From positions 1-64,000 of the forward strand of contig NZ_FOFS01000010.1 of NCBI RefSeq assembly GCF_900111015.1: 64,000 bases of DNA, written 5' to 3'. A program made the position numbers and the translations under genes. The stretch is from Solimonas aquatica. GTDB taxonomy: Bacteria > Pseudomonadota > Gammaproteobacteria > Nevskiales > Nevskiaceae. Below, piece by piece: positions 41-34,930 of the stretch (position 1 is the first letter of the stretch; the number at the start of each line of letters is the position of its first letter). Below the pieces are notes generated by a model. That model had not been told where the DNA came from. It made no database searches and worked only from the letters and a program-made list of their open reading frames with translations.

Positions 41-49
41 GTTTAAGAC

Positions 50-282: not shown

Positions 283-3147
<2,865 letters not shown>

Positions 3148-3279
3148 TCAAACATTCTTTCGAACGTCGAAGCCTAGATCTCACTCGACAATCTTCGCCG
3201 TTAAGCACCTATGGCATTGAGTTCAACTAGCTTTACGCTAATCAACTAATGACAACAGTGTTCAACTACTAAACCGTAT

Positions 3280-3292
3280 TGTTAAAGAACAG
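3280..3292 (-). promoter_or_regulatory. boxA antitermination element before 23S
   Basis: The minus strand reads TGTTCTTTAACAA, one base from the E. coli rrn boxA consensus (TGCTCTTTAACAA). It lies in the tRNA-23S spacer, where boxA elements recruit the NusB/NusE antitermination complex. Confidence 0.8.
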
Positions 3293-3346
3293 ATCTACTC
3301 ACGTAGATTCGGGAAAACATTCACAACAAATGCTTTCCGGAATCGG

Positions 3347-3422
3347 TGGTGGAGCCAGTCGGGATCGAACCGACGACCCTCTGCTTGCAAAGCAGATGCT
3401 CTCCCAGCTGAGCTATGGCCCC
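3347..3422 (-). tRNA. tRNA-Ala (TGC)
   Basis: A 76-nt cloverleaf on the minus strand begins GGGGCCATAGCTCAGC and ends in an encoded CCA. The anticodon loop CTTTGCAAG gives TGC. It is in the 16S-23S spacer next to tRNA-Ile, the common gammaproteobacterial arrangement. Confidence 0.97.
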
Positions 3423-3452
3423 GGATACCCGATTTGTGTGTATTCGCTAGGT

Positions 3453-3529
<77 letters not shown>

Positions 3530-3650
3530 CCAGGTCAAACCGTGCGATTTCAAACCTGTTTCGGGCAGAACCGCACGTGCTTCCGCGGCTCTCGATACTT
3601 AGTGCAAGTGACTTGTGTTGGATGCTCCCAAGGCGCTTTGAAGCGTACTT

Positions 3651-5181
<1,531 letters not shown>

Positions 5182-17171: not shown

Positions 17172-18497
17172 CTAGGCAAGCGCCGGCGCGGCGCAACCGC
17201 CGGCACGCCGCCCTTGCACATAGCTGTGGCGCACGGCGCGATCCGGCGACAGCGTCATCCAGACCAGCAGGCGCTCGGCCAGCGTCTGGCAACGCGACAG
17301 GCGCCGCGCCAGCAGCGGCGTGGCGGCCTCATCCAGCACGATGAAATCCGCTTCGCTGCCCGCTGCCAGCGTGCCGATCCGATGATCCAGGCCCAGCATG
17401 CGTGCCGCACCCAGCGTGGCCAGATAGAACGCGCGCAGCGCCGGCAGGCGCTGGCCTTTCATCTGCGCCACCTTGTAAGCCTCGCCGAGCGTGCGCAGCA
17501 TGGAGAAACTGCTGCCGCCGCCGACATCCGTGGCCGGCGCATAGCGCATGCCGGCGGCATCGCTGGCGTCCAGATCGAACAGGCCGCTGCCCAGATACAG
17601 GTTCGAAGTCGGCGAGAACGCCGCACCCGCGCCGCTGGCCGCCATGCGCTGGCGGTCGGCGGTGTCCAGGTGTATGCAGTGCGCGTATATGGCGCGTTCG
17701 CGCAGCAGGCCGTTGCGCTCGTAGACGTCAAGATAACTGCGCGCCTCGGGAAACAGCTCACGCACCCAGGCGATCTCCTTCGCATTCTCGGCCAGATGGC
17801 TGTGCACGAACACATCGGGATATTCGCGCGCCAGACGTCCGGCGCTGGCCAGCTGTTCGGGTGTGGAGGTCGGCGCGAAGCGCACGGTGATGGCGTAGCT
17901 CTGTCGCTGGCGGCCATGCCAGGCCTCGATCAGCTCGCGGGTGTCGCGCTCGCCCTCCTCGGCCGTGTCGCGCAGGTCTGCCGGGCAGTTGCGGTCCATC
18001 AGGCATTTGCCGGCAATCATGCGCAGGCCGCGCGCGGCGCTGGCGGCGAAGAACTGCTCGGCGGAAACGCGATGCACCGTGCCCAGCACCAGGGCCGTGG
18101 TGCTGCCATTGCGCAGCAGCTCGTCGAGAAAGAACTCGCTCACCTCGCGCGCCTGCGCGGCATCGGCAAAGCGCCGCTCCTCGGGAAAGGTGTAGCGATT
18201 CAGCCAGTCCAGCAGGTCCTGCCCGCCGGAGCCGATCATATCGGTCTGCGGATAGTGGATATGGGGATCGATGAAGCCGGGCAGCAGCAGGGCCTGGCGA
18301 TGTTCGATCAGCGGCACGCCGGCAGCTTCGCCACGCAGCAGCGCCTCCGCCGGTCCCGCTGCCACCACGCGACCATCCGCCACCAGCAGCAGGCCGTCGG
18401 GCCAGTACTCGTAGCCGTGATCCTCCCGCGTACCGGGATCGGCGTGGAAGCGCAGCAGCGCGCCGCGATGCGCGCAGGCTTCAGCGGCGAGCGCCAT
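17172..18497 (-). CDS. guaD: Guanine deaminase
   Basis: Zinc amidohydrolase converting guanine to xanthine, the substrate of the XDH encoded upstream. The 441-aa length is typical. Motifs: PGFIDPHIHYPQ (metal His pair), FVHSHLAEN, the EISW-like metal His region YAHCIHL and the ATDVGGGSSFSM catalytic Asp region. It overlaps the puuD stop by 17 nt and lies 12 bp before gntR. Confidence 0.95.
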   Translation of the reverse strand: MALAAEACAHRGALLRFHADPGTREDHGYEYWPDGLLLVADGRVVAAGPAEALLRGEAAGVPLIEHRQALLLPGFIDPHIHYPQTDMIGSGGQDLLDWLNRYTFPEERRFADAAQAREVSEFFLDELLRNGSTTALVLGTVHRVSAEQFFAASAARGLRMIAGKCLMDRNCPADLRDTAEEGERDTRELIEAWHGRQRQSYAITVRFAPTSTPEQLASAGRLAREYPDVFVHSHLAENAKEIAWVRELFPEARSYLDVYERNGLLRERAIYAHCIHLDTADRQRMAASGAGAAFSPTSNLYLGSGLFDLDASDAAGMRYAPATDVGGGSSFSMLRTLGEAYKVAQMKGQRLPALRAFYLATLGAARMLGLDHRIGTLAAGSEADFIVLDEAATPLLARRLSRCQTLAERLLVWMTLSPDRAVRHSYVQGRRAGGCAAPALA

Positions 18498-19692
18498 GTT
18501 CGATCCAGGCCAGCACCGCAGCGCGTTCGTCCTCGGTCATGGCGGTGAGATTACCGATCGGCATGGCCTTGGACGCAAGCTGCTGCTGGATGGCGGTGGT
18601 ATGCGTGAGGATGTGCTCGGCACTGTCCAGCACCACGCCCTTGGGCGGCGCCGCAAAGCCCAGCAGCGTGGGATGCTCGGCATGACAGCCCGCGCAGCGC
18701 GCCTGGATGATGCCCTGCACCGCCGCGAACTCCTCGGCCGCAGGCTTGGCTGCCGTGCTGCCCGCCACCGGCGCCGGACGCAGCAGCAGCGCCACCAGCA
18801 GGAGCAGCAGCACGCCCGCCGCCACGGTCCACGGCGGCGTCCGGCCACCGCGCTCATGCGCCTTGTGCCGTGCCACGAACCAGGCGCGGATCAGCGCGCC
18901 GGCCAGGGTCAGGGCGATCAGCACCGCCCAGTTGTACTTCGCGCCATAGCTCATCGCGTAGTGATTGCTGATCATCACCAGCAGCACCGGCAGCGTGAAA
19001 TAGGTGTTGTGCACCGAGCGCTGCTTGCCGCGCAGGCCGTGAATCGGATCGGGCTCGCGGCCCTCGCGCTTGGCGCGCACCAGCTCGCGCTGCCCTGGAA
19101 TGATCACGAAGAAGACATTGGCCACCATGATGGTGCCCAGCATCGCGCCGAACTGGAGGTAGGCGCCGCGCCCGCTGAACAGATGGCAGAGCGCATAGGC
19201 CGCCGCACTCAGCAGCAGCGCCAGCAGCGCGCCCAGCACGCGCTCATGACGGCCCAGCGGCGAGCGGCACAGCGCGTCGTAGATCAGCCAGCCGCCCAGC
19301 AGAAAGCCCAGGCCGATGCCGATGGCCGCCGGCTTGCTCAACGCCAGCACCGCCGGATCGATCAGATACACCTCGGCCTGCGCGTAATAGAGCAGGCCCA
19401 GCAGGAAGAAGCCGGACAGCCAGGTGGTGTAGGCCTCCCAGTAGAACCAGTGCAGATGTTCCGGCAGCTGCGCCGGCGCCACCTTGTACTTCTGCGCGTT
19501 GTAGAAGCCGCCGCCATGCACCGCCCAGAGTTCGCCACCGACGCCGGCCTCGCGCAGCTCGGAACGCCTGGGCGCGAGCAGATGATTGTCCAGCCAGACG
19601 AAGTAGAAGGAGGCGCCGATCCAGGCGATGCCGGTGATCAGGTGCAGCCAGCGACCGAGCAGGCTCAGCCAGTCGAGCGTGTAAGCGAGCAT
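18481..19692 (-). CDS. puuD: Membrane cytochrome-c urate oxidase PuuD
   Basis: Integral-membrane urate hydroxylase yielding 5-hydroxyisourate and passing electrons to the respiratory chain, so no H2O2 is made. The 403-aa protein has about eight membrane helices (RWLHLITGIAWIGASFYFVWL is helix 1) and a C-terminal monohaem cytochrome c domain with CAGCH. Its place between nucleoside permeases and guaD, with uraH and uraD in the same operon, supports the urate step. No soluble uricase is present. Start has a GAGG upstream. Confidence 0.92.
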   Translation of the reverse strand: MLAYTLDWLSLLGRWLHLITGIAWIGASFYFVWLDNHLLAPRRSELREAGVGGELWAVHGGGFYNAQKYKVAPAQLPEHLHWFYWEAYTTWLSGFFLLGLLYYAQAEVYLIDPAVLALSKPAAIGIGLGFLLGGWLIYDALCRSPLGRHERVLGALLALLLSAAAYALCHLFSGRGAYLQFGAMLGTIMVANVFFVIIPGQRELVRAKREGREPDPIHGLRGKQRSVHNTYFTLPVLLVMISNHYAMSYGAKYNWAVLIALTLAGALIRAWFVARHKAHERGGRTPPWTVAAGVLLLLLVALLLRPAPVAGSTAAKPAAEEFAAVQGIIQARCAGCHAEHPTLLGFAAPPKGVVLDSAEHILTHTTAIQQQLASKAMPIGNLTAMTEDERAAVLAWIEHGARR

Positions 19693-19699
19693 GCCGGCC

Positions 19700-20626
19700 T
19701 CAGGCGTCGGGGTGGAAGCTCTTGCCCAGCGAGGCCGGCTGGTTGAGCAGGATGGTTTTCGGATCGCGGCAGATCAGCACCAGCACCACGATGGTCGCGG
19801 CATACGGCAGCATGGAGAGAAACTCCGAGGGCACGTCGATGCCGAAGCCCTGCGCATAGAGCTGCATCACCGTCACGCCGCCGAACAGATACGCCCCCAG
19901 CATCACGCGCAGCGGTTTCCAGGTGCCGAACACCACCAGGGCCAGGGCGATCCAGCCGCGCCCCGAACTCATGCCTTCCACCCACATCGGCGTCAGCGCC
20001 GTGGACAGGTAGGCGCCGGCGACGCCGGCCATGGCACCGCCGAACATCACCGCCAGGTAACGGATGGCAATCACCGGCTCGCCGATGGCATGCGCCACGC
20101 TGGGCGATTCGCCCGTGGCGCGCATGCGCAGGCCGGCATGCGTGCGATACAGAAACCAGGACACGGCGGCGAACAAGCCCAGCGACAGGTACACCAGCGC
20201 GTCGTAGCTGAACAGCAGCGGCCCGATCACCGGCAGATCGGACAGCCCCGGAACATCGAGCTTGGGCACGCGCTCGATGGGCATGCCGGCGTAGCCGCGT
20301 CCGACGAAGGCCGACAGGCCGATGCCGAACAGGGTCAGGGCCAGACCGGTGGCCACCTGATTGGTCTGCAGGCTCAGGGTGAGAAAGGCAAACAGCAGGG
20401 ACACCGCCGTGGCGGCGGCCATCGCGGCGGCGAAACCCAGAAGCAGCGAGCCGGTCTTGATGCCGACCACGAAGGCGCTGACCGCGCCGATCAGCATCAT
20501 GCCCTCCACGCCCAGATTGAGTACGCCGGCGCGCTCGGTGACCAGTTCGCCCAGCGCCGCATAGATCAGCGGCGTGGCGGCAATGACGGTGCTGACCAGA
20601 ATCGGAATCAGATGTGCGAGATCCAT
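19700..20626 (-). CDS. Nucleoside-type ABC transporter permease (second)
   Basis: A 308-aa inner-membrane permease of the BPD_transp_2/RbsC-like group, with about eight hydrophobic segments and the conserved GxLNLGVEGMM motif (here GVLNLGVEGMML) and VFGTWKPLRVMLGAYLF. It is paired with the permease just upstream (12-bp gap) and the ATPase, as in guanosine/nucleoside BMP-dependent importers. The periplasmic binding protein is encoded on the divergent operon at 29890. Confidence 0.9.
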   Translation of the reverse strand: MDLAHLIPILVSTVIAATPLIYAALGELVTERAGVLNLGVEGMMLIGAVSAFVVGIKTGSLLLGFAAAMAAATAVSLLFAFLTLSLQTNQVATGLALTLFGIGLSAFVGRGYAGMPIERVPKLDVPGLSDLPVIGPLLFSYDALVYLSLGLFAAVSWFLYRTHAGLRMRATGESPSVAHAIGEPVIAIRYLAVMFGGAMAGVAGAYLSTALTPMWVEGMSSGRGWIALALVVFGTWKPLRVMLGAYLFGGVTVMQLYAQGFGIDVPSEFLSMLPYAATIVVLVLICRDPKTILLNQPASLGKSFHPDA

Positions 20627-20638: not shown

Positions 20639-21754
20639 TTAGTTGGCAAGCACGGCCGGCGCGGCGTGAACCACGCGCCGCAGACGGAAGGTGATGAACA
20701 GATCCGCGGCCAGCAGGTAGAACAGCAGCGTGCCCTGGAACAGGCCGGTGATCGAAGACGGCAGCTGCAGCGAGAGCTGTGCGTTCTCGCCGCCCAGGTA
20801 CAGCAGCGACATCAGCAGTGCCGAGAGCACGATGCCGATGGGATGCAGGCGCCCGACGAAGGCGACGATGATCGCGGCAAAGCCATAGCCCGGCGAGATC
20901 ACCGGCTGCAGCTGGCCGATGGGACCTGCGACTTCCGCCAGCCCCGCCAGCCCGGCTGCGCCGCCACCGATCATCAGCGCCAGCCAGATGTTGCGCTTCT
21001 CGCTGAAGCCCGCGTAGGCCGCAGCGGCCGGTGCCAGACCCGCGACCAGCATGCGGTAGCCCGCGAAGCTGCGGCTGGAGAAGAACCAGGACAGCAGCGC
21101 CAGGACGAGGGCAATCAGATACGCCAGGTTCACGCGTGCGCCTTCGATCAGCAGCGGCAGTGTGGCGTTCTCGGCAAAGGCCTTGGACTGCGGAAAGTTG
21201 TAGCCATGCGGATCGCGCCAGGGCCCGTGCACCAGATAGCCAAGCAGCAGCTGCGCGATGTAGACCAGCATCAGGCTGACCAGAATCTCGTTGGTGTGAA
21301 AGCGCGTGCGCAGAAAAGCCGGAATCGAAGCCCAGAGCATGCCGCCCAGCGCACCGGCGATCAGCATCACCGGCAACGCGAAATGTCCCAGAGAATCGCC
21401 CAGGAACAGCGCCACGCCGCCGCCGGTGATGGCGCCGATGGTGAGCTGGCCTTCGGCTCCGATGTTCCAGACATTGGACTTGAAGCCCAGGGCCAGACCC
21501 AGCGCGCAGAGCGTGAGCGGCGTGGCTTTCAGCAGCAGCTCACCGATGCCGTAGCTGGAGGACACCGGCTCGATGAAGAACACCTTGAACGCTTCCGCCG
21601 GGCTCTTGCCCAGCAGGGTGAACACGATCAGGCCGGTGATCAGCATCGCCAGCGCCGCAATCAGCGGCGAGGCCAGACGCATGGCCGAAGACGGCGCCGG
21701 CCGCTTCTCCAGACGAAAGGGCCAGAGCGCGCCGAGGCGATTTTCAGACGACAT
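20639..21754 (-). CDS. Nucleoside-type ABC transporter permease (first)
   Basis: A 371-aa inner-membrane permease with about nine hydrophobic segments and the GAEGQLTIGAI motif of BMP-system permeases. The ORF is open to 21781, but the start at 21754 (MSSENRLG) overlaps the ATPase stop by 11 nt, the same coupling geometry as gntR-puuE. It forms the heterodimeric channel with the next permease. Substrate is likely purine nucleosides or bases, from context. Confidence 0.9.
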   Translation of the reverse strand: MSSENRLGALWPFRLEKRPAPSSAMRLASPLIAALAMLITGLIVFTLLGKSPAEAFKVFFIEPVSSSYGIGELLLKATPLTLCALGLALGFKSNVWNIGAEGQLTIGAITGGGVALFLGDSLGHFALPVMLIAGALGGMLWASIPAFLRTRFHTNEILVSLMLVYIAQLLLGYLVHGPWRDPHGYNFPQSKAFAENATLPLLIEGARVNLAYLIALVLALLSWFFSSRSFAGYRMLVAGLAPAAAAYAGFSEKRNIWLALMIGGGAAGLAGLAEVAGPIGQLQPVISPGYGFAAIIVAFVGRLHPIGIVLSALLMSLLYLGGENAQLSLQLPSSITGLFQGTLLFYLLAADLFITFRLRRVVHAAPAVLAN

Positions 21755-23300
21755 CGGCGGCCTCCGCAGTCTTGGCTTCACCGCCGGCCATCAGCACGCC
21801 GATCTTTTCGATGGACAGCTCGGAGGACGGCAGCGGCTGGGTCAGCCGGCCTTGCGCAATCACGGCTATGCGGTCGCAGATCATGAACAGCTCATCCAGT
21901 TCTTCGGAAATCACCAGCAGGGCCACACCGCGATCGCGCAGATCGATCAGGGCCTGGCGGATCAGCAGCGAGGCGCCGACGTCCACACCCCAGGTCGGCT
22001 GCGCCACCACCATCACCTTGGGCGTCAGCCGCGTCTCGCGACCGACGATGAATTTCTGCAGATTGCCGCCCGACAGCGAACTCGCCGCCGCCAGCTCGCC
22101 GCCGCACTTGACCTTGAACTGCGCGATGGTCTCCTTGGCAAACTCGCGCGCCGCGCGGTTCTGCACCAGGCCGAAGCGCACCATGCCCGCGCCGGCCCCG
22201 GTGAGCAGGGCGTTGTGCGCCAGATGCATGGGCGGCACCGCGCCACGCCCCAGGCGTTCCTCGGGCACGAAGGTCAGGCCCAGCTTGCGGCGCAGGGCCG
22301 GATTCCTGAGTCCGGCCGGCTGGCCGCAGATGCGCACCATGCCGCTGTGCGGACACAGCGTCTCACCGGAGAGCGCGGACAGCAGCTCCTTCTGGCCATT
22401 GCCGGAGACGCCGGCGATGCCGACGATCTCGCCTTCGCGCACGCGCAGATTGATGTCCTTGAGCACGGTGCCGAAGGGATCGCGGCTGGGCAGCGTCAGA
22501 TTGGTCAGCTCCAGCTGGATGTCGCCGGGCTCGCGGGGCTTGAGCTGGCATTCCTTCAGCTCGCTGCCCACCATCAGCCGCGCCAGGCTTTCATTGCTCT
22601 CCTGCGCCGGGATGGCCTTGCCGCTGAGCTTGCCGCCGCGCAGCACCGTGGCGGTGTCGCAGAGCTCGCGGATCTCATCGAGCTTGTGGCTGATGTAGAG
22701 AATGCTCACGCCCTCGCTGGCCAGCCGGCGCAGGGTTTCGAACAGCTTGCGCACCGCCTGCGGGGTGAGCACCGACGTGGGCTCGTCCATGATCAGCAGA
22801 CGCGGCGACTGCAGCAGGCAGCGCACAATCTCCACACGCTGGCGCTCGCCCACCGACATGCTGTGCGTGAGGCGGTTGGGGTCCACCGGCAGTCCGTACT
22901 TCTCCGAGACCTCGCGGATGCGCGGCGCCAGATCCGCAGGCTTGACCTTCTCGTCCATGGCCAGGGCGATGTTCTCGGCCACGGTCAGGGTTTCGAACAG
23001 GGAGAAATGCTGGAACACCATGCCGATGCCCAGGCGCCGCGCCTCGGCCGGGCTGGCGATGCTCACGATCCTGCCTTCCCACTCGATGCTGCCCTCGTCC
23101 GGGCGCGTCACGCCGTAGACGATTTTCATCAGCGTGCTCTTGCCGGCACCGTTCTCGCCGAGCAGGGCGTGAATCTCGCCAACCTTTACCGTGAGATCGA
23201 CGCGATCATTGGCGACCACGGTGGGATAGCGCTTGCTGATGCCGCGCAGCTGCAGGCGCGGTGGCATTTCGTTCACGGCAGGCGCTGGGTCTGCGGACAT
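21744..23300 (-). CDS. Nucleoside-type ABC transporter ATPase (duplicated domains)
   Basis: A 518-aa protein with two ATPase halves. The first has Walker A GENGAGKST (residues 48-56), signature SVGERQR and Walker B LLIMDEPTS. The second is degenerate (GVSGNGQKELL, signature LSGGNLQK, VVAQPTWGVD), normal for BMP and sugar importer families. The frame is open to 23579, but the start at 23300 has AAGGAT about 9 nt upstream and overlaps the xdhC stop by 28 nt. It energises uptake by the two downstream permeases. Confidence 0.92.
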   Translation of the reverse strand: MSADPAPAVNEMPPRLQLRGISKRYPTVVANDRVDLTVKVGEIHALLGENGAGKSTLMKIVYGVTRPDEGSIEWEGRIVSIASPAEARRLGIGMVFQHFSLFETLTVAENIALAMDEKVKPADLAPRIREVSEKYGLPVDPNRLTHSMSVGERQRVEIVRCLLQSPRLLIMDEPTSVLTPQAVRKLFETLRRLASEGVSILYISHKLDEIRELCDTATVLRGGKLSGKAIPAQESNESLARLMVGSELKECQLKPREPGDIQLELTNLTLPSRDPFGTVLKDINLRVREGEIVGIAGVSGNGQKELLSALSGETLCPHSGMVRICGQPAGLRNPALRRKLGLTFVPEERLGRGAVPPMHLAHNALLTGAGAGMVRFGLVQNRAAREFAKETIAQFKVKCGGELAAASSLSGGNLQKFIVGRETRLTPKVMVVAQPTWGVDVGASLLIRQALIDLRDRGVALLVISEELDELFMICDRIAVIAQGRLTQPLPSSELSIEKIGVLMAGGEAKTAEAADVV

Positions 23301-24343
23301 GCGGCACATCCTTGCGGGGTACAGGTTTCGATGGGTTTGTCGTGCCGGGACAGCGCAGCCTCGCTGTCCAGCTGCAGCAGCTGCGCGGCGATGGCCACGG
23401 CAATGGCCTGCGGCAGCTTGGCGGCGATGCCGTCCACGCCGACCGGACAGCGCAGGCGCGCGATCTGCTCGGTGCTGAAGCCCTCCTCGCGCAGTCGCGA
23501 GCGAAAGCGCGCGGCCTTGCTCTGCGAACCGATCAGCCCGGCGAAGGCGAAATCGCCCCGCTGCAACAGCGCGCGGCACAGCGCGTAATCCAGGGCATGG
23601 TCATGCGTCATGATCAGATGCAGGGCAGCGGCCGGCGCCTGGCGCAGGGCCTCCACCGGCAGCTGTGTGTGCAGGGTCTGCACGTTGTCGGGCAGATCGG
23701 CGGGCAGGAATTCGGCGCGCGAGTCCAGCCACTGCACGGCAAACGGCAGACCGCTGAGCACGCGCACCAGGGCCTGGCCAACGTGCCCGGCACCGTAGAG
23801 ATACAGCGGCGGATCGGCGGGCGCGCAGCGCTCGAACAGCACACAGCTCTCGGCGCCACGGCGCAGCTGCACACGCGGCCCCTGTGCGGGCGGCGCGATC
23901 TGCACCTGCCGCAGCAGGCGGCCGTCGGCCCGCAGCTCGCACTGCCATTGCCCCTGACGCTGCAGCGCTTCCAGCGTGGGCCGGTCCTGCGGCTCGAAGC
24001 GTTCCAGCCACAGCTCCACCACGCCACCGCAGCACTGCCCCATCTCACGGCCCAGCACCAGCTGCAGACGCTGTGCGCGCACGTCGCCGCCGAGCAACAG
24101 GCGCGCCGCCTGCAGCGCATGCCATTCCAGATAGCCGCCGCCGATGGTGCCCAGCTGCCGCTCGCCGGCCAGCAGCAGGCAGGCGCCGGCTTCACGCGGA
24201 CCCGAACCGCGCAGCCCCGCGACCAGCACGCGGATCACGGATTTCTCCTCGCGCAGCAGACGCAGCGCGGCGCCGGGCCAGTGCCGCAGCGGCTCCAGCC
24301 AGCGTCCGGCCGGCGTGTGCACGGCATCGGCGAGCGCGCTCAT
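23273..24343 (-). CDS. xdhC: XdhC molybdenum-cofactor insertion/maturation factor
   Basis: XdhC binds molybdenum cofactor, has it sulfurated and delivers it to XdhB. The 356-aa protein has the N-terminal XdhC/CoxI domain (TIGGGYLEWHA and GQCCGG) and a C-terminal Rossmann domain (YLYGAGHVGQALV, GLIGSQSK). The ORF is open far upstream inside xdhB, but the ATG at 24343 overlaps the xdhB stop as ATGA. The C-terminal tail is Cys-rich (CTPQGCAACPQ), which is unusual but of unknown meaning. Confidence 0.92.
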   Translation of the reverse strand: MSALADAVHTPAGRWLEPLRHWPGAALRLLREEKSVIRVLVAGLRGSGPREAGACLLLAGERQLGTIGGGYLEWHALQAARLLLGGDVRAQRLQLVLGREMGQCCGGVVELWLERFEPQDRPTLEALQRQGQWQCELRADGRLLRQVQIAPPAQGPRVQLRRGAESCVLFERCAPADPPLYLYGAGHVGQALVRVLSGLPFAVQWLDSRAEFLPADLPDNVQTLHTQLPVEALRQAPAAALHLIMTHDHALDYALCRALLQRGDFAFAGLIGSQSKAARFRSRLREEGFSTEQIARLRCPVGVDGIAAKLPQAIAVAIAAQLLQLDSEAALSRHDKPIETCTPQGCAACPQTQRLP

Positions 24344-26658
24344 GCCAGCGGCTCCAGTCCACCGATGGCGCGCAGAATCGCCTCGGCCGTGGCCGGCGCC
24401 TGCAAATGGGAAAGACCGTCGCCGCCCCGTGCCGCCGCGCAGGCATCCCGCGCCGCGTGAAACACCGCCATGCCCAGCATCAGCGGCGGCTCGCCCACAG
24501 CCTTGGAGCGGTAGATGGTGTCCTCGCGATTGGGCTCGTCCTGCAGCAGGCTCACCCTGAAACGCGCCGGCCAGTCGCGCGCGGTGGGAATCTTGTAGGT
24601 CGAAGGCGCATGGGTCTTCAGCTCGCCCCGCGCGTTCCACCACAGCTCCTCGCAGGTGAGCCAGCCCGCGCCCTGCAGGAAGCCGCCTTCGATCTGGCCG
24701 ATGTCCAGCACCGGATTCAGGCTCTTGCCGACATCGTGAAGAATGTCCACGGCCAGAATCTGCAGCTCGCCGCTGAGCGTGTCGATGGCCACTTCCGCCA
24801 CGGCCGCGCCGTAGGCGAAGTAATAGAAAGGCCGGCCGGTGAGCGTGGCCTTGTCCCAGTGAATCTTGGGCGTGCGGTAGAAGCCGGTGGCGGACAGCGA
24901 GATGCGCGCGTGGTAAGCCGCGCGCACCAGTTCGGCGAAGCTGATGCCGCGCTCGCCCAGCTGCACCTGGCCATCGGCAAAGCGGATCTGCTCGGGCGCC
25001 AGCTGATACTGCGCGCAAGCGAAGTCGATCAGGCGCTGGCGGATGGTCTGCGCCGCCGCCTGCGCGGCCTTGCCATTGAGATCCGAACCCGAGGACGCGG
25101 CCGTGGCCGAGGTGTTGGGCACCTTGCTGGTGTCGGTGGCGCTGACGCGGATCGCCGCACGCGGCAGGCCCAGCTCGGTGGCCACCACCTGCAACACCTT
25201 GGTGTAGAGGCCCTGCCCCATCTCCGTGCCGCCGTGATTGAGCAGCACCGTGCCGTCGTTGTAGACCTGCAGCAGGGCACCGGCCTGATTGTAGATGGTG
25301 GCGTTGAAAGAGATGCCGAACTTCACCGGCGTCAGCGCGATGCCCTTCTTGATCACCGGACTCTGCGCATTGAAGGCGGCAATCGCCGCGCGGCGTGCAC
25401 GGTAATCGCTGCTGGCCTCCAGCTGGTCGCTGATGGTGTGCAGCACATTGTCTTCGACCACTTGCCCGTAGGGCGTGACATCACGCTCGCCGATGCCGTA
25501 GTAGTTCACGCGCCGCACGTCGAGCGGATCGGCTTTCAGCGTGCGCGCGATGTCATCGACGATACCCTCGATCACCATCATGCCCTGCGGACCGCCGAAG
25601 CCGCGAAACGCGGTGTTGGACACCGTGTGCGTCTTGCAGCGATGCGAGACCAGCTCGACATGCTCCAGAAAATAGGCATTGTCGATATGGCAGATGGCGC
25701 GATCGTTCACCGGCCCGGACAGGTCCGCCGAGTAACCGCAGCGCGAGGCCAGCATCAGGCGCAGCGCCAGGATGCGGCCCTGCGCATCGAAGCCCACTTC
25801 ATAGTCGGCGAGAAAATCGTGGCGCTTGCCGGTCATCACCATGTCGGCATCGCGATCCAGGCGCAGCTTCACCGCGCGACCGGTCTTGCGCGCCAGGATC
25901 GCCGCGGCGGCGGCAATCAGTGCCGGCTGGCTTTCCTTGCCGCCGAAGCCGCCGCCCATGCGCCGGCACTGCACGGTGACATCGTGCGCGTGCAGGGCCA
26001 TGGCATGCGCCACCATGTGCTGCACCTCGGTGGGATGCTGCGTGGAGCTGTGGATGAGCAGGGCGCCGTCTTCCTGCGGGATCGCGACGGCGATCTGTCC
26101 TTCCAGATAGAAATGGTCCTGCCCGCCCATCACCACCGTGCCGCTCAGGCGTTGCGGTGCGCTGGCCAAGACCGCCTGCGGCTCACCCCGCTGCAGCCGC
26201 TGGCTCGGAATCACATAGCTCTCGGCGGCCAGGGCGCTGCGGATATCCAGCAGCGCCGGCAGTTCCTCGTAATCGATCTTCGCCAGCGCGACGGCGCGGC
26301 GCGCGGCGCCATAAGACATCGCGGCCACCGCAAACAAGGGCTGGCCGTGATACTCGACCTGCTGCCCGGCGAAGATCGGATCGTCATGGACGATGCCGCC
26401 GTAATTGTTCTCGCCCGGCACATCGGCCGCCGTCACCACCGCGACCACGCCCGGCGCGGCGCGCACGGCGGAAAGATCCAGGGACTTGATACGACCGTGG
26501 GCAATGCGCGAAAGCCCGAAGGCGGCGTGCAGGCTGCCGGCCGGCAGCGGGATGTCATCGGCGTAAGCCGCGCGGCCGCTGACATGCAGATGCGCGCTCT
26601 CATGGCGCAGTGATTCACCGGCCTGGGCGCTGCGGCTGGGAGCGGCGGAACCGGCCAT
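24340..26658 (-). CDS. xdhB: Xanthine dehydrogenase, molybdopterin-binding subunit
   Basis: Catalytic large subunit that hydroxylates hypoxanthine and xanthine to urate at the molybdenum centre. The 772-aa length is standard for bacterial XdhB. Motifs include FYLEGQIA, RRMGGGFGGKE, FRGFGGPQGM, GGTEMGQGL and the C-terminal GVGEPP-like KAVGEPPLMLG carrying the catalytic Glu. Its ATG directly follows the xdhA TGA. It forms an alpha2beta2 enzyme with XdhA. Confidence 0.96.
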   Translation of the reverse strand: MAGSAAPSRSAQAGESLRHESAHLHVSGRAAYADDIPLPAGSLHAAFGLSRIAHGRIKSLDLSAVRAAPGVVAVVTAADVPGENNYGGIVHDDPIFAGQQVEYHGQPLFAVAAMSYGAARRAVALAKIDYEELPALLDIRSALAAESYVIPSQRLQRGEPQAVLASAPQRLSGTVVMGGQDHFYLEGQIAVAIPQEDGALLIHSSTQHPTEVQHMVAHAMALHAHDVTVQCRRMGGGFGGKESQPALIAAAAAILARKTGRAVKLRLDRDADMVMTGKRHDFLADYEVGFDAQGRILALRLMLASRCGYSADLSGPVNDRAICHIDNAYFLEHVELVSHRCKTHTVSNTAFRGFGGPQGMMVIEGIVDDIARTLKADPLDVRRVNYYGIGERDVTPYGQVVEDNVLHTISDQLEASSDYRARRAAIAAFNAQSPVIKKGIALTPVKFGISFNATIYNQAGALLQVYNDGTVLLNHGGTEMGQGLYTKVLQVVATELGLPRAAIRVSATDTSKVPNTSATAASSGSDLNGKAAQAAAQTIRQRLIDFACAQYQLAPEQIRFADGQVQLGERGISFAELVRAAYHARISLSATGFYRTPKIHWDKATLTGRPFYYFAYGAAVAEVAIDTLSGELQILAVDILHDVGKSLNPVLDIGQIEGGFLQGAGWLTCEELWWNARGELKTHAPSTYKIPTARDWPARFRVSLLQDEPNREDTIYRSKAVGEPPLMLGMAVFHAARDACAAARGGDGLSHLQAPATAEAILRAIGGLEPLA

Positions 26659-28119
26659 TCAGTTCTCCAGCGCCGTGACGCGCAGCGCCGGCGCATCGGG
26701 CAGGCTGTGCAGATAGAAACGGCGCAGCAGATTCTGCGCGCCGCGCAGGCGATACGCGGCGCTGGCGCGCATATCGCTCAAGGGTTTGAAGTCCTGCGCC
26801 AGCGCCTGCATCGCCTGCGCCAGCGTCGCTTCATTCCAGGGCTGGCCCCGCAGCGCGGCTTCGGTCTGTCTGGCGCGCGCCGGAATCGCCGCCATGCCGC
26901 CGTAGGCGATGCGCGCCTCGCGCACCAGGCCGTTCTCCAGCTGCAAGGCGAAAGCCGCACAGACCGCCGAGATGTCCTGATCAAAACGCTTGGACAGCTT
27001 GTAGCAGGCAAAGGCCGCCGGCGCCTGCAGCGGCACCCGCACATAGGCGAGAAACTCGCCGCGCTGCAGATCCTTCTTCTGGTAATCCAGATAAAAATCT
27101 TCCAGCGCCAGCTCGCGCTGCTGCTCGCCGCATTGCAGGACGATGCGCGCGCCCAGGGCCATCAAGGGCGGCATGGCATCGCCGATGGGCGAACCATTGG
27201 CGAGATTGCCGCCCAGCGTGCCGGAGTTGCGCACCGGCGGTGAGGCGAAGCGCTGCGCCAGTTCGGTGAGCGCCGGATGTGCCGCCACGATGGCGGCCCA
27301 GGCATCACTCAGGGATACCGCCGCGCCGATGCGCAGAAACCCGGCGTCTTGCTCGATCTGCTGCAGCTCGGCGACCTCGCCCAGATAGATCAGCGCCGGC
27401 AGCGTGCGCAGCAGCTTGGTGACCCACAGCCCGATATCGGTGCCGCCGGCCAGGAGCAGGGCCTCGGGCGCTTCCAGGCGTGCCTGCGCCAGTTCCTTGA
27501 GATTGCGCGGCGCGATGAAGCCCGGCAGGCGCAGCGCTTGTTCGCGCTGCAGCGCTTCCAGATCGGCCAGACGCTGCGGGTTCTGCAGTTCCGCGCGCGA
27601 CCAGTGCGTCGGCGCTGCGTATTCGTGCATGCGGCAACCGGCTTCGATGATGGGCCGGTAACCCGTGCAGCGACAGAGATTGCCGGACAAGGCATCGACC
27701 ACTGCTGCGCGATCCGCCGAGGCCTGCTGCAGGTACTGCGCGAACAGGCTCATGACAAAGCCCGGCGTGCAGAAGCCGCATTGCGAACCGTGGCAATCGA
27801 CCATCGCCTGCTGCACCGGATGCAGGCTGCCATCGGGCGCCTGCAGGCTTTCCACTGTCACCAGCTCCTTGCCGTCGATGGTGGGCAGAAAGCGGATGCA
27901 GGAATTGATGGCGCGATAGCGCAGCGTGCCGCCGCAGCGCTCGCCCAGCACCACGGTGCAGGCGCCGCAATCGCCTTCGGCGCAGCCTTCCTTGCTGCCC
28001 GTGCGCTGCGCGTGCTCGCGCAGATATTCGAGCAGCGTGGTGGTCGCCGGCAGCCCGTGCACTTCCTGCAGCTGCCCGTCGAGCAGGAAGCGGATGCTGT
28101 CCTCTGGAGGGCTCGCCAT
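26659..28119 (-). CDS. xdhA: Xanthine dehydrogenase, FeS/FAD subunit
   Basis: Electron-transfer subunit of XDH. The 486-aa protein has a plant-type 2Fe-2S site (Cys46, Cys51, Cys54, Cys73), a second 2Fe-2S site (CGFCTPG ... CRCTGYRPI) and an FAD domain of the CO-dehydrogenase type (LLAGGTDIGLWV and LGGNLANGSPIGD). NAD+ is the usual acceptor. It lies 2 bp after uraH and directly abuts xdhB. Confidence 0.96.
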   Translation of the reverse strand: MASPPEDSIRFLLDGQLQEVHGLPATTTLLEYLREHAQRTGSKEGCAEGDCGACTVVLGERCGGTLRYRAINSCIRFLPTIDGKELVTVESLQAPDGSLHPVQQAMVDCHGSQCGFCTPGFVMSLFAQYLQQASADRAAVVDALSGNLCRCTGYRPIIEAGCRMHEYAAPTHWSRAELQNPQRLADLEALQREQALRLPGFIAPRNLKELAQARLEAPEALLLAGGTDIGLWVTKLLRTLPALIYLGEVAELQQIEQDAGFLRIGAAVSLSDAWAAIVAAHPALTELAQRFASPPVRNSGTLGGNLANGSPIGDAMPPLMALGARIVLQCGEQQRELALEDFYLDYQKKDLQRGEFLAYVRVPLQAPAAFACYKLSKRFDQDISAVCAAFALQLENGLVREARIAYGGMAAIPARARQTEAALRGQPWNEATLAQAMQALAQDFKPLSDMRASAAYRLRGAQNLLRRFYLHSLPDAPALRVTALEN

Positions 28120-28121
28120 CT

Positions 28122-28472
28122 TCAGCTGCCGCGATAAGTGGAATAAGCCCAGGGCGAAACCAGCAAGGGCACGTGGTAGTGGCCATCCGGATCGGCAACG
28201 CCGAAGTGCAGGCTCACTGCATCCAGAAAAGCGGGCTCGGGCAGCTGCATGCCCCTCTGCCGGAAATATTCGGCGACCTGAAACACCAGGATGTAGCGGC
28301 CTGCCAGCAGTGCCTCGCCTTCGAGCAGCGGACGGTCACAGCGACCGTCGGCATTGGTGCGCGTCTCCAGCAACAGCTCGCCGCCGCCCTCATTGCGATA
28401 CAGCGCCACGCGCATGCCGGCGGCGGGACGGCCGGTGACGGTATCGAGTACGTGCGTACTGAGTCTGCCCAT
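28122..28472 (-). CDS. uraH: 5-hydroxyisourate hydrolase
   Basis: A transthyretin-like enzyme that opens HIU to OHCU. The start at 28472 gives 116 aa with the N-terminal [14 protein letters not shown] and the C-terminal YSTYRGS signature, both typical. The longer open frame upstream runs through the control region and is rejected. It is the first gene of the 16-kb minus-strand operon, about 54 nt after the predicted sigma-54 start point. Confidence 0.95.
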
Positions 28473-28537
28473 GCTTCGCGCGATCCCCGTTTTGCTTGGC
28501 TGGCGACGGCTGCTGCCGCGCCGATACGGTCTGTCGA

Positions 28538-28553
28538 GCAATACATATGCCAG
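28538..28553 (-). promoter_or_regulatory. Sigma-54 (-24/-12) promoter for the uraH-xdh operon
   Basis: The minus strand reads CTGGCATATGTATTGC, matching the RpoN consensus YTGGCACG-N4-TTGC with the required GG-N10-GC spacing. Transcription would start near 28526, giving a leader of about 54 nt before uraH. Sigma-54 control fits use of purines as nitrogen source; the enhancer-binding activator is not in the window. Confidence 0.7.
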
Positions 28554-28601
28554 CGCCGGTACCGTGCAGTGCCCTCGCATCTTGCGCGTCCGACGGCACC
28601 C

Positions 28602-28617
28602 GGATTGTATGCAATCC
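28602..28617. promoter_or_regulatory. Palindromic operator candidate O1
   Basis: GGATTG-TATG-CAATCC: perfect 6-bp arms around a TATG centre. It is centred about 84 bp upstream of the predicted minus-strand start point. It contains the TTGTATGCAA core shared with O2 and O3. It could bind the operon's GntR protein or a sigma-54 activator. Confidence 0.55.
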
Positions 28618-28624
28618 ATTTTTT

Positions 28625-28635
28625 ATTGCACACAA
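28625..28635 (-). promoter_or_regulatory. Operator candidate O2
   Basis: The minus strand reads TTGTGTGCAAT, matching 10 of 11 bases of the O1 core (TTGTATGCAAT). It lies 7 bp from O1, suggesting paired binding. Confidence 0.4.
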
Positions 28636-28788
28636 AAAGAGCGCCGCTTTGCCGCCCCGGCAGAGCGCGGCTCGCAACGGGGCAGCACCGCCTTGGCACG
28701 CCTCAGAATCGCGCACGCACCGACGCAACAAGGCATGAGGCGGCAGGGCGATGCCCCGCGCCGGCGCGCAGCCGGCAGCGCTTTTCAT

Positions 28789-28812
28789 CTTGCATACATG
28801 ATCTTATGCAAG
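28789..28812. promoter_or_regulatory. Palindromic operator candidate O3
   Basis: CTTGCATA and TATGCAAG form a perfect 8-bp inverted repeat with an 8-bp gap. Each arm carries the TATGCAA half-site. It ends 12 bp before the plus-strand sigma-54 element, close enough to affect that promoter directly. Confidence 0.55.
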
Positions 28813-28824
28813 GCCAAAAACCAA

Positions 28825-28839
28825 TGGCATGGGACTTGC
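28825..28839 (+). promoter_or_regulatory. Sigma-54 (-24/-12) promoter for the Tsx-BMP operon
   Basis: TGGCATGGGACTTGC has the RpoN GG-N10-GC spacing and differs from TGGCACG-N4-TTGC at one position. The start would be near 28851, leaving a leader of about 135 nt before the Tsx-like gene. It shares TGGCAT-N5-TTGC with the divergent promoter at 28538. Confidence 0.7.
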
Positions 28840-28985
28840 GGCCGCAACGATTGTGTACCGGATCAAAAGCGGACGGGAGCGGTTTGGGGATTGGAAGACC
28901 GACTCCGGACACCAGCAGGTGCCGCTGTCTGCGCGATGACCGGCTTCTGGGGATTTTTTGCCAAGCAATAGGGAGCACATCAGGA

Positions 28986-29813
28986 ATGAAAGCACTGAAA
29001 AAACTGGGCGCAGGCCTCGCCGCGCTGATGGCCATGAGCGCGGGCAATGCGCACGCGGGTCTGGCGCAGTGGTCGAGCAACAACATCGAATATCTCTACG
29101 GCACGCACTACAACCAGATCGGTGCTGACGGACACGACACTCGCAGCATCGTCACCATCGAACACGTCGATGCCTGGAAGTATGGCGACAACTTCTTCTT
29201 CGTCGACATCACCAATGCCGACCGCCAGGGCAAGCTGGGCAGCAACGGCTCGGGCGGCGAGTTCGCCACCTACTACGGCGAACTCTCGCCGCGCCTGTCC
29301 TTCGGCAAGATCACCGGCAAGGATCTGTCCTTCGGCATCTTCAAGGACTTCCTGTTCACCGCCACGCTGGAAATGCCGACCGCCACCGTGGTGCAGCTCG
29401 GCGGCGCCACCAACAACCTCCTCCTGCAGAACGAGCAGACCTATCTCTACGGCCTGGCCACCGATCTGAAGCTGCCGGGCTTTGCCTATTTCCAGGTCAA
29501 TCTCTATCGCCGCGACAACCAGTCTTCCGCGGTCGGTGCGGGCGGCCAGCTGACCCTGGTCTGGGGCGCGCCGTTTAGCATCGGTCCAGCAAAGATGATG
29601 TTCGAAGGCTTCTTCGACTACGCCTTCAGCGAAAGCGGCTTGCACGACAACATCATCACCGCGCCGCGCCTGCTGGTGGATGCCGGCGATTTCTTCGGCG
29701 CGCCGGGCACGGTGCAGGTCGGCTGCGAGTGGCAGATCTGGCGCAATCAGTTCGGCATCAAGGATGAGAACGAGAGCGTGCCGCAGGCGATGGTCAAGGT
29801 GATTTTCAACTAA
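28986..29813 (+). CDS. Tsx-like nucleoside channel, outer membrane
   Basis: A 275-aa protein with a signal peptide (about 1-24, ending NAHA) and alternating aromatic beta strands of a Tsx/OmpK-type beta barrel, ending in a C-terminal VKVIFN with final aromatic-Asn typical of outer-membrane insertion. Family members pass nucleosides across the outer membrane. The start at 28986 follows GGGAG at about 12 nt; the open frame to 28173 crosses the control region and is rejected. First gene of the plus-strand operon. Confidence 0.87.
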   Translation: MKALKKLGAGLAALMAMSAGNAHAGLAQWSSNNIEYLYGTHYNQIGADGHDTRSIVTIEHVDAWKYGDNFFFVDITNADRQGKLGSNGSGGEFATYYGELSPRLSFGKITGKDLSFGIFKDFLFTATLEMPTATVVQLGGATNNLLLQNEQTYLYGLATDLKLPGFAYFQVNLYRRDNQSSAVGAGGQLTLVWGAPFSIGPAKMMFEGFFDYAFSESGLHDNIITAPRLLVDAGDFFGAPGTVQVGCEWQIWRNQFGIKDENESVPQAMVKVIFN

Positions 29814-29819
29814 GCGGGC

Positions 29820-29852
29820 GAACGCCGGCGGGCGTCCTGCCCGCCGGCGTTC
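29820..29852 (+). other. Intercistronic 14-bp hairpin
   Basis: A perfect 14-bp stem (29820-29833 with 29839-29852, 5-nt loop) lies between the Tsx-like and BMP genes. No U-run follows. It could protect the upstream mRNA from 3' decay or set a Tsx:BMP ratio. Confidence 0.65.
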
Positions 29853-29889
29853 TGCCGTGTGCGTGAAACAAAGTTCTGGAGACACATCG

Positions 29890-32027
<2,138 letters not shown>

Positions 32028-32037
32028 GCGCCCTCAC

Positions 32038-32430
32038 ATGTCACCGGGCCTCAGCGTCAATCTGTTCTGCCAGGATCTGGACCGCGTCTTTGATTTCTAT
32101 CGCCAGCTGTTCGAGCTGGAAGAAGCCGTGGAGCACCGCTCGCCGATCTACCGCGCGCTGCGCATCGCCGGCAGCGACATCGGCTTTCATGCCCCGGCAG
32201 CGGTGGCGCTGCTCAACGCCGGCGCGCTGCGCGCACAGCGCCCCAGCGTCGCGCACTACCCGACCTTCCATGTCGACCGCCAGACCGAGGTCGATGCGCT
32301 CTGCGCACGCGCCTTGCAGCTCGGCGCCAGCCTGCTCAAGGCGCCGTATCTCACCTACTACCGCGCCTGGCAGGCGGTGCTGCAGGACCCGGAAGGCAAT
32401 TTCTTCCGCATCAATCACTATCTGAGTTGA
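32038..32430 (+). CDS. VOC-family (glyoxalase-like) protein
   Basis: A 130-aa single-module VOC fold: N-terminal LFCQDLDRVFDFYRQLF, central FHVD and C-terminal VLQDPEGNFFRINHY, with the candidate metal Glu in DPEGN and His in FHVD. Members include glyoxalases, dioxygenases, epimerases and resistance proteins, so no function is assigned. It is 10 bp after the adenine deaminase and 9 bp before the dioxygenase gene, so it is almost surely part of the purine operon. Confidence 0.8.
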   Translation: MSPGLSVNLFCQDLDRVFDFYRQLFELEEAVEHRSPIYRALRIAGSDIGFHAPAAVALLNAGALRAQRPSVAHYPTFHVDRQTEVDALCARALQLGASLLKAPYLTYYRAWQAVLQDPEGNFFRINHYLS

Positions 32431-32439
32431 AGCCTTCCC

Positions 32440-33483
32440 ATGGCCAGCGAGCTGCAGGTTCCGATCATCGACATTTCCGGCTTCGCCCACGGCGGGCAGG
32501 CGCAGCGCGCGGCGATTGCCGCCAGCGTCGGCGCCGCCGCGCGCGAAATCGGCTTCATGCAGATTTGCGGCCATGGCGTGCCGGACGCCGCCATCGAAGG
32601 CCTGAAAGCCGCCATCGATGGCTTCTTCGGCCTGCCCCTCGAAGACAAGCTGCGCTGCCGGCCGCCGAGCACCGAGATCAATCGCGGCTACACCGGCCTG
32701 CGCAGCGAGCGGCTCAGCTACAGCCTGGGCGTGGCCTCGCCGGCGGATCTGTTCGAGGCCTTCAACATCGGCAGCACCGTTTCGCAGCATCCCGGGGTGG
32801 CGCTGCCCGCCGAACACTTTCCGGAAAATCTCTGGCCGCAGCAGCCTGCTGCATTTCGCGCGCAGATCGAAACCTGGTTTGCCGAGGCCGGCGCCCTGGC
32901 GCGACGCATGACGCGCATCTTCGCGCTGGCCCTGAATCTGCCCGACGATTATTTCGTGCCCTTCCAGAACCGCTCCATCGACACCCTGCGTCTCAACAAC
33001 TACCAGCTGCCGCCCGGCGACACGCGCGTGGAGCCCGGGCAGATGGGCATGGGCGGCCATACCGATTACGGCATCGTCACGGTGCTCTGGGCCGACGCAG
33101 TCAGTCCGGGCCTGCAGATCATGGACGGCGATGGCGACTGGCATGACATCGTGCCCGCGCCCGGGGCGATGCTGATCAATCTCGGCGACATGCTGGCGCG
33201 CTGGAGCAATGATCGCTGGCGCTCGACCCTGCACCGCGTGCTGCCGCCGGTGAACGGCCAGGGGCGTCTGATCCGGCGCCGTTCGGCGGCCTATTTTCAC
33301 GATGGCAATCACGATGCCCTGGTCAGCTGCCTGCCCGGCTGCGCGGATGCCGATCATCCACCGCTGTATCCGCCGGTGACGGTGGGCGAGCACCTGAGCT
33401 TCAAGCTGCGCGGCTCGCGCGGCCTGGAACTCAACCCGCATTCCGAGCGCGAGGCGGCGCGCCTGCTGAGCGGCAGCGAGTAG
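32440..33483 (+). CDS. Isopenicillin-N-synthase-like 2OG-Fe(II) dioxygenase
   Basis: A 347-aa non-haem iron oxygenase. The N-terminal DIOX_N region is VPIIDISGFAHGG and GFMQICGHGVP. The iron triad is His207 and Asp209 (HTDYG) with His265 (LHRV). The Arg280-x-Ser282 pair would bind the 2-oxoglutarate carboxylate. Thymine-7-hydroxylase is in this superfamily, so a nucleobase substrate is plausible. Its position between adenine and 8-oxoguanine deaminase genes points to an oxidised or methylated purine. Substrate is unknown. Confidence 0.85.
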   Translation: MASELQVPIIDISGFAHGGQAQRAAIAASVGAAAREIGFMQICGHGVPDAAIEGLKAAIDGFFGLPLEDKLRCRPPSTEINRGYTGLRSERLSYSLGVASPADLFEAFNIGSTVSQHPGVALPAEHFPENLWPQQPAAFRAQIETWFAEAGALARRMTRIFALALNLPDDYFVPFQNRSIDTLRLNNYQLPPGDTRVEPGQMGMGGHTDYGIVTVLWADAVSPGLQIMDGDGDWHDIVPAPGAMLINLGDMLARWSNDRWRSTLHRVLPPVNGQGRLIRRRSAAYFHDGNHDALVSCLPGCADADHPPLYPPVTVGEHLSFKLRGSRGLELNPHSEREAARLLSGSE

Positions 33484-33493
33484 CCGCCGCCGG

Positions 33494-33499
33494 CATACT
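33494..33499 (+). promoter_or_regulatory. -10-like hexamer abutting a start codon
   Basis: CATACT is six bases before the ATG at 33506, so an internal transcript would start on the start codon. No Shine-Dalgarno precedes this gene. Candidate only. Confidence 0.25.
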
Positions 33500-33505
33500 G
33501 CGCGC

Positions 33506-34930
33506 ATGAACACCGACAACGAGCAGATCCTGCTGCTGCACGGCGCCGCAGTGGTGGCCACCATGGACGCGCAGCGCCGCGAAATCGCCGGCGGCAGCGT
33601 GGCCGTGCAAGGCCGGCAGATCGCCTGCGTGGGCAGCGCCGCCGAGGTGCAGGCCTGGCTCGACGCCGAGCCCACGCGCCGCGTGCAGCGGCGCATCGAT
33701 CTGACTGGCTGCGTGCTGCTGCCCGGCCTGATCAACGGCCATCATCATCTCTACCAGACGCTGACGCGCGGCATCGGCACCGCGCGCGGCCTGGCGCTGT
33801 TCGACTGGCTCAAGACCCTGTATCCGATCTGGGGCCAGATGCACGGCGAGGCGGTGTATGTCAGCGCCAAGCTGGGCCTGGCGGAACTGCTGCTCAGCGG
33901 CGCCACCACGGTGGCCGATCATCTCTACATGTATCCCAATGGCGCGCGCATCGATGATGAGATCGCCGCCGCACGCGAACTGGGTCTGCGCTTTCATCCC
34001 ACGCGCGGCTCGATGAGCGTGGGCATCAGCCAGGGCGGTCTGCCGCCGGATCATCTGGTGGAAGACGAGGACGCGATTCTCCGGGACTGCCTGCGCGTGA
34101 TCGGACAGTTTCATGATGCGCAGGACTATTCGATGCTGCGCATCGGTCTGGCGCCCTGCTCGCCGTTCAGCGTCAGCGGCGAGCTGATGCGCCAGTCCGC
34201 GCGCATGGCGCGCGCGCATGCGCGCGTGGGCCTGCACACGCATCTGGCGGAAACCATCGATGAGGACCGCTACTGCCTGGAGAAATTCGGCATGCGGCCG
34301 CTCGACTACGCCGAATCGGTGGAGTGGCTGGGCCCGGACGTGTGGTTCGCGCACATGGTGCATCCCTCGGGCGCCGAGATCGGCAAGCTCGCGCACAGCT
34401 GCAGCGGTGTCTGCCACTGCGCCAGCAGCAACATGATTCTGGCCTCGGGCATCGCGCCGGTGCGCGCGATGGTGGACGCCGGTGTGCGCCTGGGCCTGGG
34501 CGTGGACGGCTCGGCCAGCAATGACGGCAATCACATGCTGGGCGAGGCGCGTCAGGCCATGCTGCTGCAACGCGTGGGCTGGCCGGGTTTCGAATCGCGC
34601 GCCGACCGCATGTCGGCACGCGAGGCCCTGGAACTCGCCACACTCGGCGGCGCGCGCATGCTGGCGCGGCAGGACATCGGGCATCTGGCGCCGGGCATGG
34701 CGGCGGATCTGGTGGCCTTTCCCATCGACGGCATCGAGCACGCCGGCGCGCAGAGCGATCCGCTGGCCGCCCTGCTCTGCTGCGCGCCGGTGCGCGTGCG
34801 CTACTCCGTGATCAATGGTCGCGTGGTGGTGGACGAGGGCCGCATTCCGGGCCTGGATCTGCCGGCCCTGGTGCGGCAGCACAATGCGCAGGCGCAAGGC
34901 CTGCTGCAGCGCGCGGGGCTGGCACGCTAG
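33506..34930 (+). CDS. 8-oxoguanine deaminase-like amidohydrolase
   Basis: A 474-aa metal-dependent deaminase of the AtzB/TrzN-8-oxoguanine deaminase group. It has LPGLINGHHHLYQTLTR (metal HxH), GLHTHLAET, WFAHMVHP and GVDGSASNDG (metal Asp). The family turns 8-oxoguanine into urate, which would enter the pathway directly at PuuD. Closely related proteins deaminate other aminated heterocycles. It ends the plus-strand purine operon, 22 bp after the dioxygenase. Confidence 0.85.
   Translation: MNTDNEQILLLHGAAVVATMDAQRREIAGGSVAVQGRQIACVGSAAEVQAWLDAEPTRRVQRRIDLTGCVLLPGLINGHHHLYQTLTRGIGTARGLALFDWLKTLYPIWGQMHGEAVYVSAKLGLAELLLSGATTVADHLYMYPNGARIDDEIAAARELGLRFHPTRGSMSVGISQGGLPPDHLVEDEDAILRDCLRVIGQFHDAQDYSMLRIGLAPCSPFSVSGELMRQSARMARAHARVGLHTHLAETIDEDRYCLEKFGMRPLDYAESVEWLGPDVWFAHMVHPSGAEIGKLAHSCSGVCHCASSNMILASGIAPVRAMVDAGVRLGLGVDGSASNDGNHMLGEARQAMLLQRVGWPGFESRADRMSAREALELATLGGARMLARQDIGHLAPGMAADLVAFPIDGIEHAGAQSDPLAALLCCAPVRVRYSVINGRVVVDEGRIPGLDLPALVRQHNAQAQGLLQRAGLAR

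Follow-up and report, generated by a model that had tools for sequence, protein, structure and literature searches.

Divergent sigma-54 promoters very probably drive two purine operons, with a local GntR protein as their probable gate

Two operons for purine uptake and breakdown face away from a 513-bp gap in the window, by which we mean the whole 64,000-nucleotide stretch of DNA analysed here, and the import and breakdown genes are very probably driven by divergent sigma-54 switches in that gap. In our best model, to which we give a probability of about 0.8, the two promoters would depend on an unlinked activator, most likely NtrC, and would be gated by a local GntR protein. An earlier note on this DNA had proposed sigma-54 promoters and an activator encoded outside the window; both points stand, while a GntR/FCD regulator encoded in one of the operons and its probable operators had gone unmentioned. 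This local regulator, with its probable operators near the promoters, is our main addition. At the level of sequence, the model draws on the boxes and their conservation, the contents of the operons, the GntR gene, and the operator motif and its recurrence.

The gap runs from 28473 to 28985, between the start of hiuH at 28472 and that of a tsx-like gene at 28986, which confirms the 513 bp given in the earlier note. As also claimed there, both strands carry a box with GG-N10-GC spacing, seen in the sequence itself and in a pattern scan:

28538 to 28552, minus strand: sigma-54 -24/-12 element TGGCATATGTATTGC, exact consensus, ahead of the hiuH-xdh-nup-uricase operon; predicted start near 28526
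28825 to 28839, plus strand: sigma-54 -24/-12 element TGGCATGGGACTTGC, exact consensus, ahead of the tsx-BMP-ada operon; predicted start near 28851

The plus coordinates had been given correctly, and the minus element had been drawn one base too far, to 28553 instead of 28552; both starts are predictions derived from the positions of the boxes. These are the only two exact matches to TGGCAY-N5-TTGC in the 64 kb window, and they are oriented outward. Across the genome the exact pattern occurs 36 times, against five for a reversed-pattern control; by hand arithmetic, the expectation for 513 bp is about 0.004 matches if the full genome density applies and 0.0006 if the control density does. These counts, and the persistence of the pair in relatives, bear out the view that it is unlikely to be a chance arrangement. 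With up to one mismatch the window holds 14 matches where 13.9 are expected, a chance count, so only the exact consensus is informative. A sigma-70 scan of 28200-29200 returned no promoter-like site, a null that carries little weight because just 0.2 would be expected there by chance.

By their gene families, the two operons together are a set for purine uptake and breakdown. The minus operon, in gene order from the gap, comprises:

28122 to 28472, minus strand: hiuH, hydroxyisourate hydrolase, first gene (TIGR02962, above cut-off)
24340 to 28119, minus strand: xdhA, then xdhB, xanthine dehydrogenase subunits (TIGR02963 and TIGR02965, above cut-off)
23273 to 24343, minus strand: xdhC (Pfam)
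21744 to 23579, minus strand: open frame of the ABC ATPase of a BMP-type importer, start probably near 23300 (Pfam)
20639 to 21781 and 19700 to 20626, minus strand: two permeases of the BMP-type importer (Pfam)
18481 to 19692, minus strand: urate oxidase N-terminal family (Pfam/NCBIfam)
17172 to 18497, minus strand: guanine deaminase (Pfam/NCBIfam)
16422 to 17159, minus strand: gntR, GntR/FCD transcriptional regulator (Pfam GntR 51.4 bits, FCD 78.8 bits)
15476 to 16465, minus strand: puuE, allantoinase PuuE (Pfam/NCBIfam)
13746 to 15479, minus strand: OHCU decarboxylase/M20 fusion (Pfam/NCBIfam)
12493 to 13749, minus strand: M20 amidohydrolase (Pfam/NCBIfam)

The plus operon occupies 28986 to 34930 (Pfam/NCBIfam throughout):

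from 28986, plus strand: tsx-like channel
from 29857, plus strand: BMP binding protein
from 31014, plus strand: adenosine deaminase
from 32038, plus strand: glyoxalase-like protein
from 32440, plus strand: 2OG-Fe(II) oxygenase-like protein
from 33506, plus strand: 8-oxoguanine deaminase

By their coordinates, neighbours in the minus operon overlap or lie no more than 12 bp apart, and the intergenic gaps of the plus operon measure 9-43 bp; each set is presumably a single transcript.

The arrangement recurs in relatives. As a probe the tsx-like protein matched few genomes: among 61 relatives only its own, and in the class 16 of 369 with its own counted. Relatives were therefore sought with the BMP and GntR proteins. 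With the window's GntR protein, clusters were fetched from 13 of the 15 other matching genomes (all except G054 and G055). Six of these 13 clusters span the gap upstream of the purine operon (L210, L212, L214-L217, with L216 and L217 near-duplicates), and all six carry the exact divergent pair; the sequences of L211 and L213 end short of the gap. The pair is also present, at the xdhA or nupA gap, in the GntR clusters L193 and L188, whose genomes were chosen since their BMP loci, at a different place from the pair gap, already had a box. In total, eight of eight GntR-containing clusters that span the gap have the exact pair upstream of the purine operon, and all 16 exact boxes of these loci fall in the divergent gap, with none in the companion stretch L187. 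On the plus side, L212 and L214-L217 have a BMP protein, while L193 has a TonB-dependent receptor and L188 a receptor-plug-domain protein; in both of these an outer-membrane gene of another type thus takes the place of the tsx-like channel behind a promoter of the same kind. A tsx-like query found no match on that side in any of the eight, L210 included. Since this gene differs among relatives, the pair has been kept while one flanking gene changes. Five clusters from one other family (L218-L222), with GntR proteins 39-44% identical, lack the divergent pair, and L222 has one box.

Searching with the BMP protein yielded 80 loci with 24 exact boxes. Ten of these boxes do not precede purine starts and were discounted (L049 at 4075, L058, L063, two in L069, L089, L098, L106, L109 and L124; those of L049 at 4075 and L058 fall within gene matches). 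The remaining 14 lie upstream of purine or importer genes in 12 loci (L045-L055 and L065), which are those with 66-84% BMP identity. The betaproteobacterial locus L048 has an exact divergent pair, L049 has two outward-pointing boxes in separate gaps, and in L045-L047, L050-L055 and L065 the exact box is confined to one side. These loci include both gamma- and betaproteobacteria and share kinship, so they do not count as independent events. We consider it very likely that the two divergent promoters are real and conserved, and the earlier claim that each stands at the head of a purine operon is supported by boxes, gene families and relatives alike.

The GntR gene is linked to the purine operon in relatives as it is in the window. 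Orthologs 80-81% identical to the window protein occur in the genomes of L045 and L046, on contigs equal in length to those of the two loci, and matches of 43-50% identity lie inside the BMP loci L047, L048, L050-L054 and L065. Three candidate operators for this protein, which would bind the motif ATTGYATRCAAT, lie in the gap:

28604 to 28615, no strand assigned: probable operator O1, ATTGTATGCAAT, centred near -83 from the predicted minus start
28625 to 28636, no strand assigned: probable weaker operator O2, ATTGCACACAAA, two mismatches, centred near -104 and 21 bp from O1
28789 to 28812, no strand assigned: candidate operator O3, inverted repeat CTTGCATA-N8-TATGCAAG, just upstream of the plus -24 box

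The O3 repeat includes TTGCATACAT (28790-28799), one mismatch from TTGYATRCAA. In the 4.43 Mb genome O1 is the only exact copy of ATTGYATRCAAT, with three other places within one mismatch. With one mismatch allowed, TTGYATRCAA has three matches in the 64 kb window, and all of them fall in this gap (28605, 28626 and 28790); the total is at chance (3.8 expected), and it is the clustering that counts. An untargeted scan that covered every 5-mer dyad with a gap of 0-10, run on 8 family regions and on 18 regions from a set of 22, ranked TTGTA-TACAA first, with z of 8.6 and 11.5 against a largest z of 5.1 and 4.9 in 120 shuffles. Two other dyads exceeded the largest shuffle, GAGTG-N4-CACTC in the family set (z 5.7) and ATCCT-N5-AGGAT in the wider set (z 5.8), and neither is a plain shift of the operator.

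The position of the motif is also regular. Measured from the predicted minus start, it is centred between -76 and -83 in eight of ten paired regions, and in the window, L215, L216 and L217 it has a partner site another 21-22 bp away from that start. Within the hiuH match, L215-L217 contain a further, exact copy of the wider operator pattern. Downstream of the box, operator scores of at least 7/10 occur at +9 to +14 of the predicted start for 10 of 32 purine boxes. Of the own genome's 34 other exact boxes, the 28 with a locus were compared in this way, and among them downstream scores of at least 8 occur only at L136 (+10) and L130 (-4). The window's own downstream sites are weak, at 7/10 for the plus box (+5) and 4/10 for the minus box. 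A clear operator is absent from L046, L047, L055 and the minus box of L049; L188 has two-mismatch sites only, and L222 has none. Four of the five clusters without the pair (L218-L221) hold six operator-like sites, of which one is exact and the other five differ at one base, where 0.8 are expected (0 of 40 shuffles); in these clusters a site precedes the urate oxidase match by about 120 bp (L218, L219) or 230-240 bp (L220, L221).

The genome has three matches to RpoN, the sigma factor (C13:198007, C6:221105 and C28:416021), and two of these have an activator-domain match at a distance of about 2 kb or less. All 26 activator-domain matches of the genome fall outside the window, in agreement with the earlier view that the enhancer-binding activator is absent from it. 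NtrC is encoded at C8:134876 (L004; 717.7 bits to TIGR01818) and NifA at C13:127587 (L002; 691.3 bits). In loci L027-L124 and L210-L222, a search with 17 of the 21 own-genome activator proteins (all except L013, L016, L017 and L020) found no activator gene beside the cluster. Midway between the promoters lies a weak NtrC-like candidate, GCACCGCCTTGGCAC (28685 to 28699, plus strand), with three mismatches to GCACCA-N3-TGGTGC; since the window holds 103 such matches at up to three mismatches where 60 are expected, it is not significant. The best NtrC-like match in the gap is equalled in 35 of 100 shuffles; degenerate sites may be present there. Taken jointly, the 22 regions are mildly enriched in NtrC-like dyads (z 3.4, reached in 0 of 60 shuffles), and L214 holds the one perfect site; z is 3.1 for the N7 variant, 2.1 for N3, -1.0 for N6, 2.3 for the NifA pattern, and 0.4, 0.4 and -1.3 for three control patterns. 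In the Duganella loci L052-L054, a GCACC-N7-GGTGC-like dyad (9/10), two bases longer than an NtrC site, lies 40-60 bp upstream of the box. As NtrC-like sites in the gap do not rise above chance, we call the link between purine use and nitrogen limitation plausible or, at most, likely, and the most likely activator, NtrC encoded outside the window, is our inference.

A simpler account would leave the two promoters to an unlinked activator such as NtrC, responding to nitrogen limitation, with no local regulator at all. The boxes are real and conserved under this account too, and it has parallels elsewhere: in the parts of PMC5491218 that we drew on, transcriptomics places xdhAB and a urate oxidase cluster of B. 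cenocepacia among the targets shared by sigma-54 and NtrC, and in those of PMC8443478 an ntrC mutant of P. stutzeri is impaired on uric acid. We nevertheless think it unlikely, given the GntR gene within the operon and the strong enrichment of the operator, and NtrC-like sites in the window are not above chance. A second alternative keeps the ATTGYATRCAAT elements at -83 and -104 and reads them as enhancer sites of an unlinked, purine-specific enhancer-binding protein rather than as GntR operators. Their position and 21-22 bp pairing do resemble enhancer sites, no NtrC-like site stands out in the window, and among the 21 activator-domain matches above 200 bits the only assignments made were NtrC, NifA and NorR. 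Against it, operator-like sites remain in GntR clusters that lack the divergent sigma-54 pair, the sites of L212 lie downstream of both predicted starts, and the dyad is similar to TGTA-N2-TACA, the operator bound by the GntR protein HutC (in the parts of PMC12977541 drawn on), all of which make this reading quite unlikely. That NifA, present on the same contig C13 at the position given above, is the activator is highly improbable, with no TGT-N10-ACA element anywhere in the 64 kb window where 5.2 would be expected.

We therefore return to the reading with both an unlinked activator and a local GntR protein. We propose that the gap is a control region common to both operons, with two divergent sigma-54 promoters and local GntR/FCD operators. 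Sigma-54 RNA polymerase would sit idle at the -24/-12 boxes until a need for nitrogen is signalled by an AAA+ enhancer-binding protein whose gene lies elsewhere, most likely NtrC. The GntR protein, itself a product of the minus operon, would bind the ATTGYATRCAAT sites near the boxes and probably block transcription, until a purine breakdown product released it; expression would then require nitrogen shortage and purine substrate together. A GntR protein that represses, with a purine breakdown product as its ligand, is what we infer from this arrangement. A counterpoint is that O1 and O2 do not cover the start but lie at -83 and -104, in a zone that would be expected to hold activator sites too.

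The combination has a known counterpart in histidine use, and by analogy this purine control region may work like that of Pseudomonas hutU. According to the parts of PMC12977541 and PMC8871633 consulted here, hutU has a sigma-54 promoter activated by NtrC or CbrB and a repressor of the GntR family, HutC, whose footprint is centred on TGTA-N2-TACA and overlaps the sigma-54 site. Both systems would join a nitrogen-yielding catabolic operon, a sigma-54 promoter, a local GntR-family regulator and a dyad near the promoter. They differ in that the regulator here is of the FCD type and not HutC, that the gap here is common to two divergent sigma-54 promoters, that no enhancer site is recognisable in the window, and that the best operator lies near -83 whereas the HutC footprint falls on the sigma-54 site. 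The likeness to B. cenocepacia is one of content, in that sigma-54 and NtrC control its genes for xanthine dehydrogenase and urate oxidase; to go by the same parts of PMC5491218, xdhAB and urate oxidase lie there at separate loci by their locus tags, the ntrC mutant grows better on uric acid, and neither a divergent pair nor a GntR site is described for these genes. The hpx genes of Klebsiella pneumoniae are similar in that hypoxanthine serves as a nitrogen source, to judge by the title of the report. A literature search, mostly outside subscription journals, returned no description of this divergent pair, and the parts of PMC5748707 seen hold nothing relevant to it. Our comparison suggests that the sigma-54 and GntR logic of histidine use is found again in the purine use of gamma- and betaproteobacteria. 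It also provides a testable and well-supported control region for a purine-use cluster, with conserved sigma-54 promoters, a local regulator and a specific operator, and a clean case for studying how an enhancer-zone regulator affects sigma-54 promoters.

A bolder version of this idea, tentative and rather doubtful in our view, is that the region represents a conserved and widespread module, in which both sigma-54 promoters are gated by a GntR/FCD protein that sits in the enhancer zone, on two sites 21-22 bp apart near -82 and -104, and acts on the activator or the DNA loop and not on the polymerase. If so, one small gap would serve as an AND-gate that lets purine use along the whole pathway proceed only when nitrogen is needed and purine is supplied.

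Some further features of the window and genome are recorded here. An RNA leader or riboswitch was considered and rejected: 28400-29100 has two Rfam matches at E<=5, both far below gathering scores, and at gathering score the window has only rRNA and tRNA, including a ribosomal RNA operon (5S, LSU, SSU and tRNAs) at 49 to 5181 on the minus strand. The predicted leader of the tsx operon contains CCGGAYCAAAAGCGGACGG (28858-28876), which has no Rfam match at gathering score and is shared with L049 (6946-6964), despite tsx-like proteins that are just 34% identical. Elsewhere in the genome, L136 (C11:125371-125385) has an exact sigma-54 box at a second BMP-family gene (145.9 bits), a TTGAATACAA dyad near +10 from the predicted start and an adjoining FCD regulator match, so the same layout is repeated. 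Another exact divergent sigma-54 pair (L140 and L141, C13:110062-110272) lies before a NifH-family gene (439.3 bits), on one contig with NifA, and the host is possibly a nitrogen fixer.
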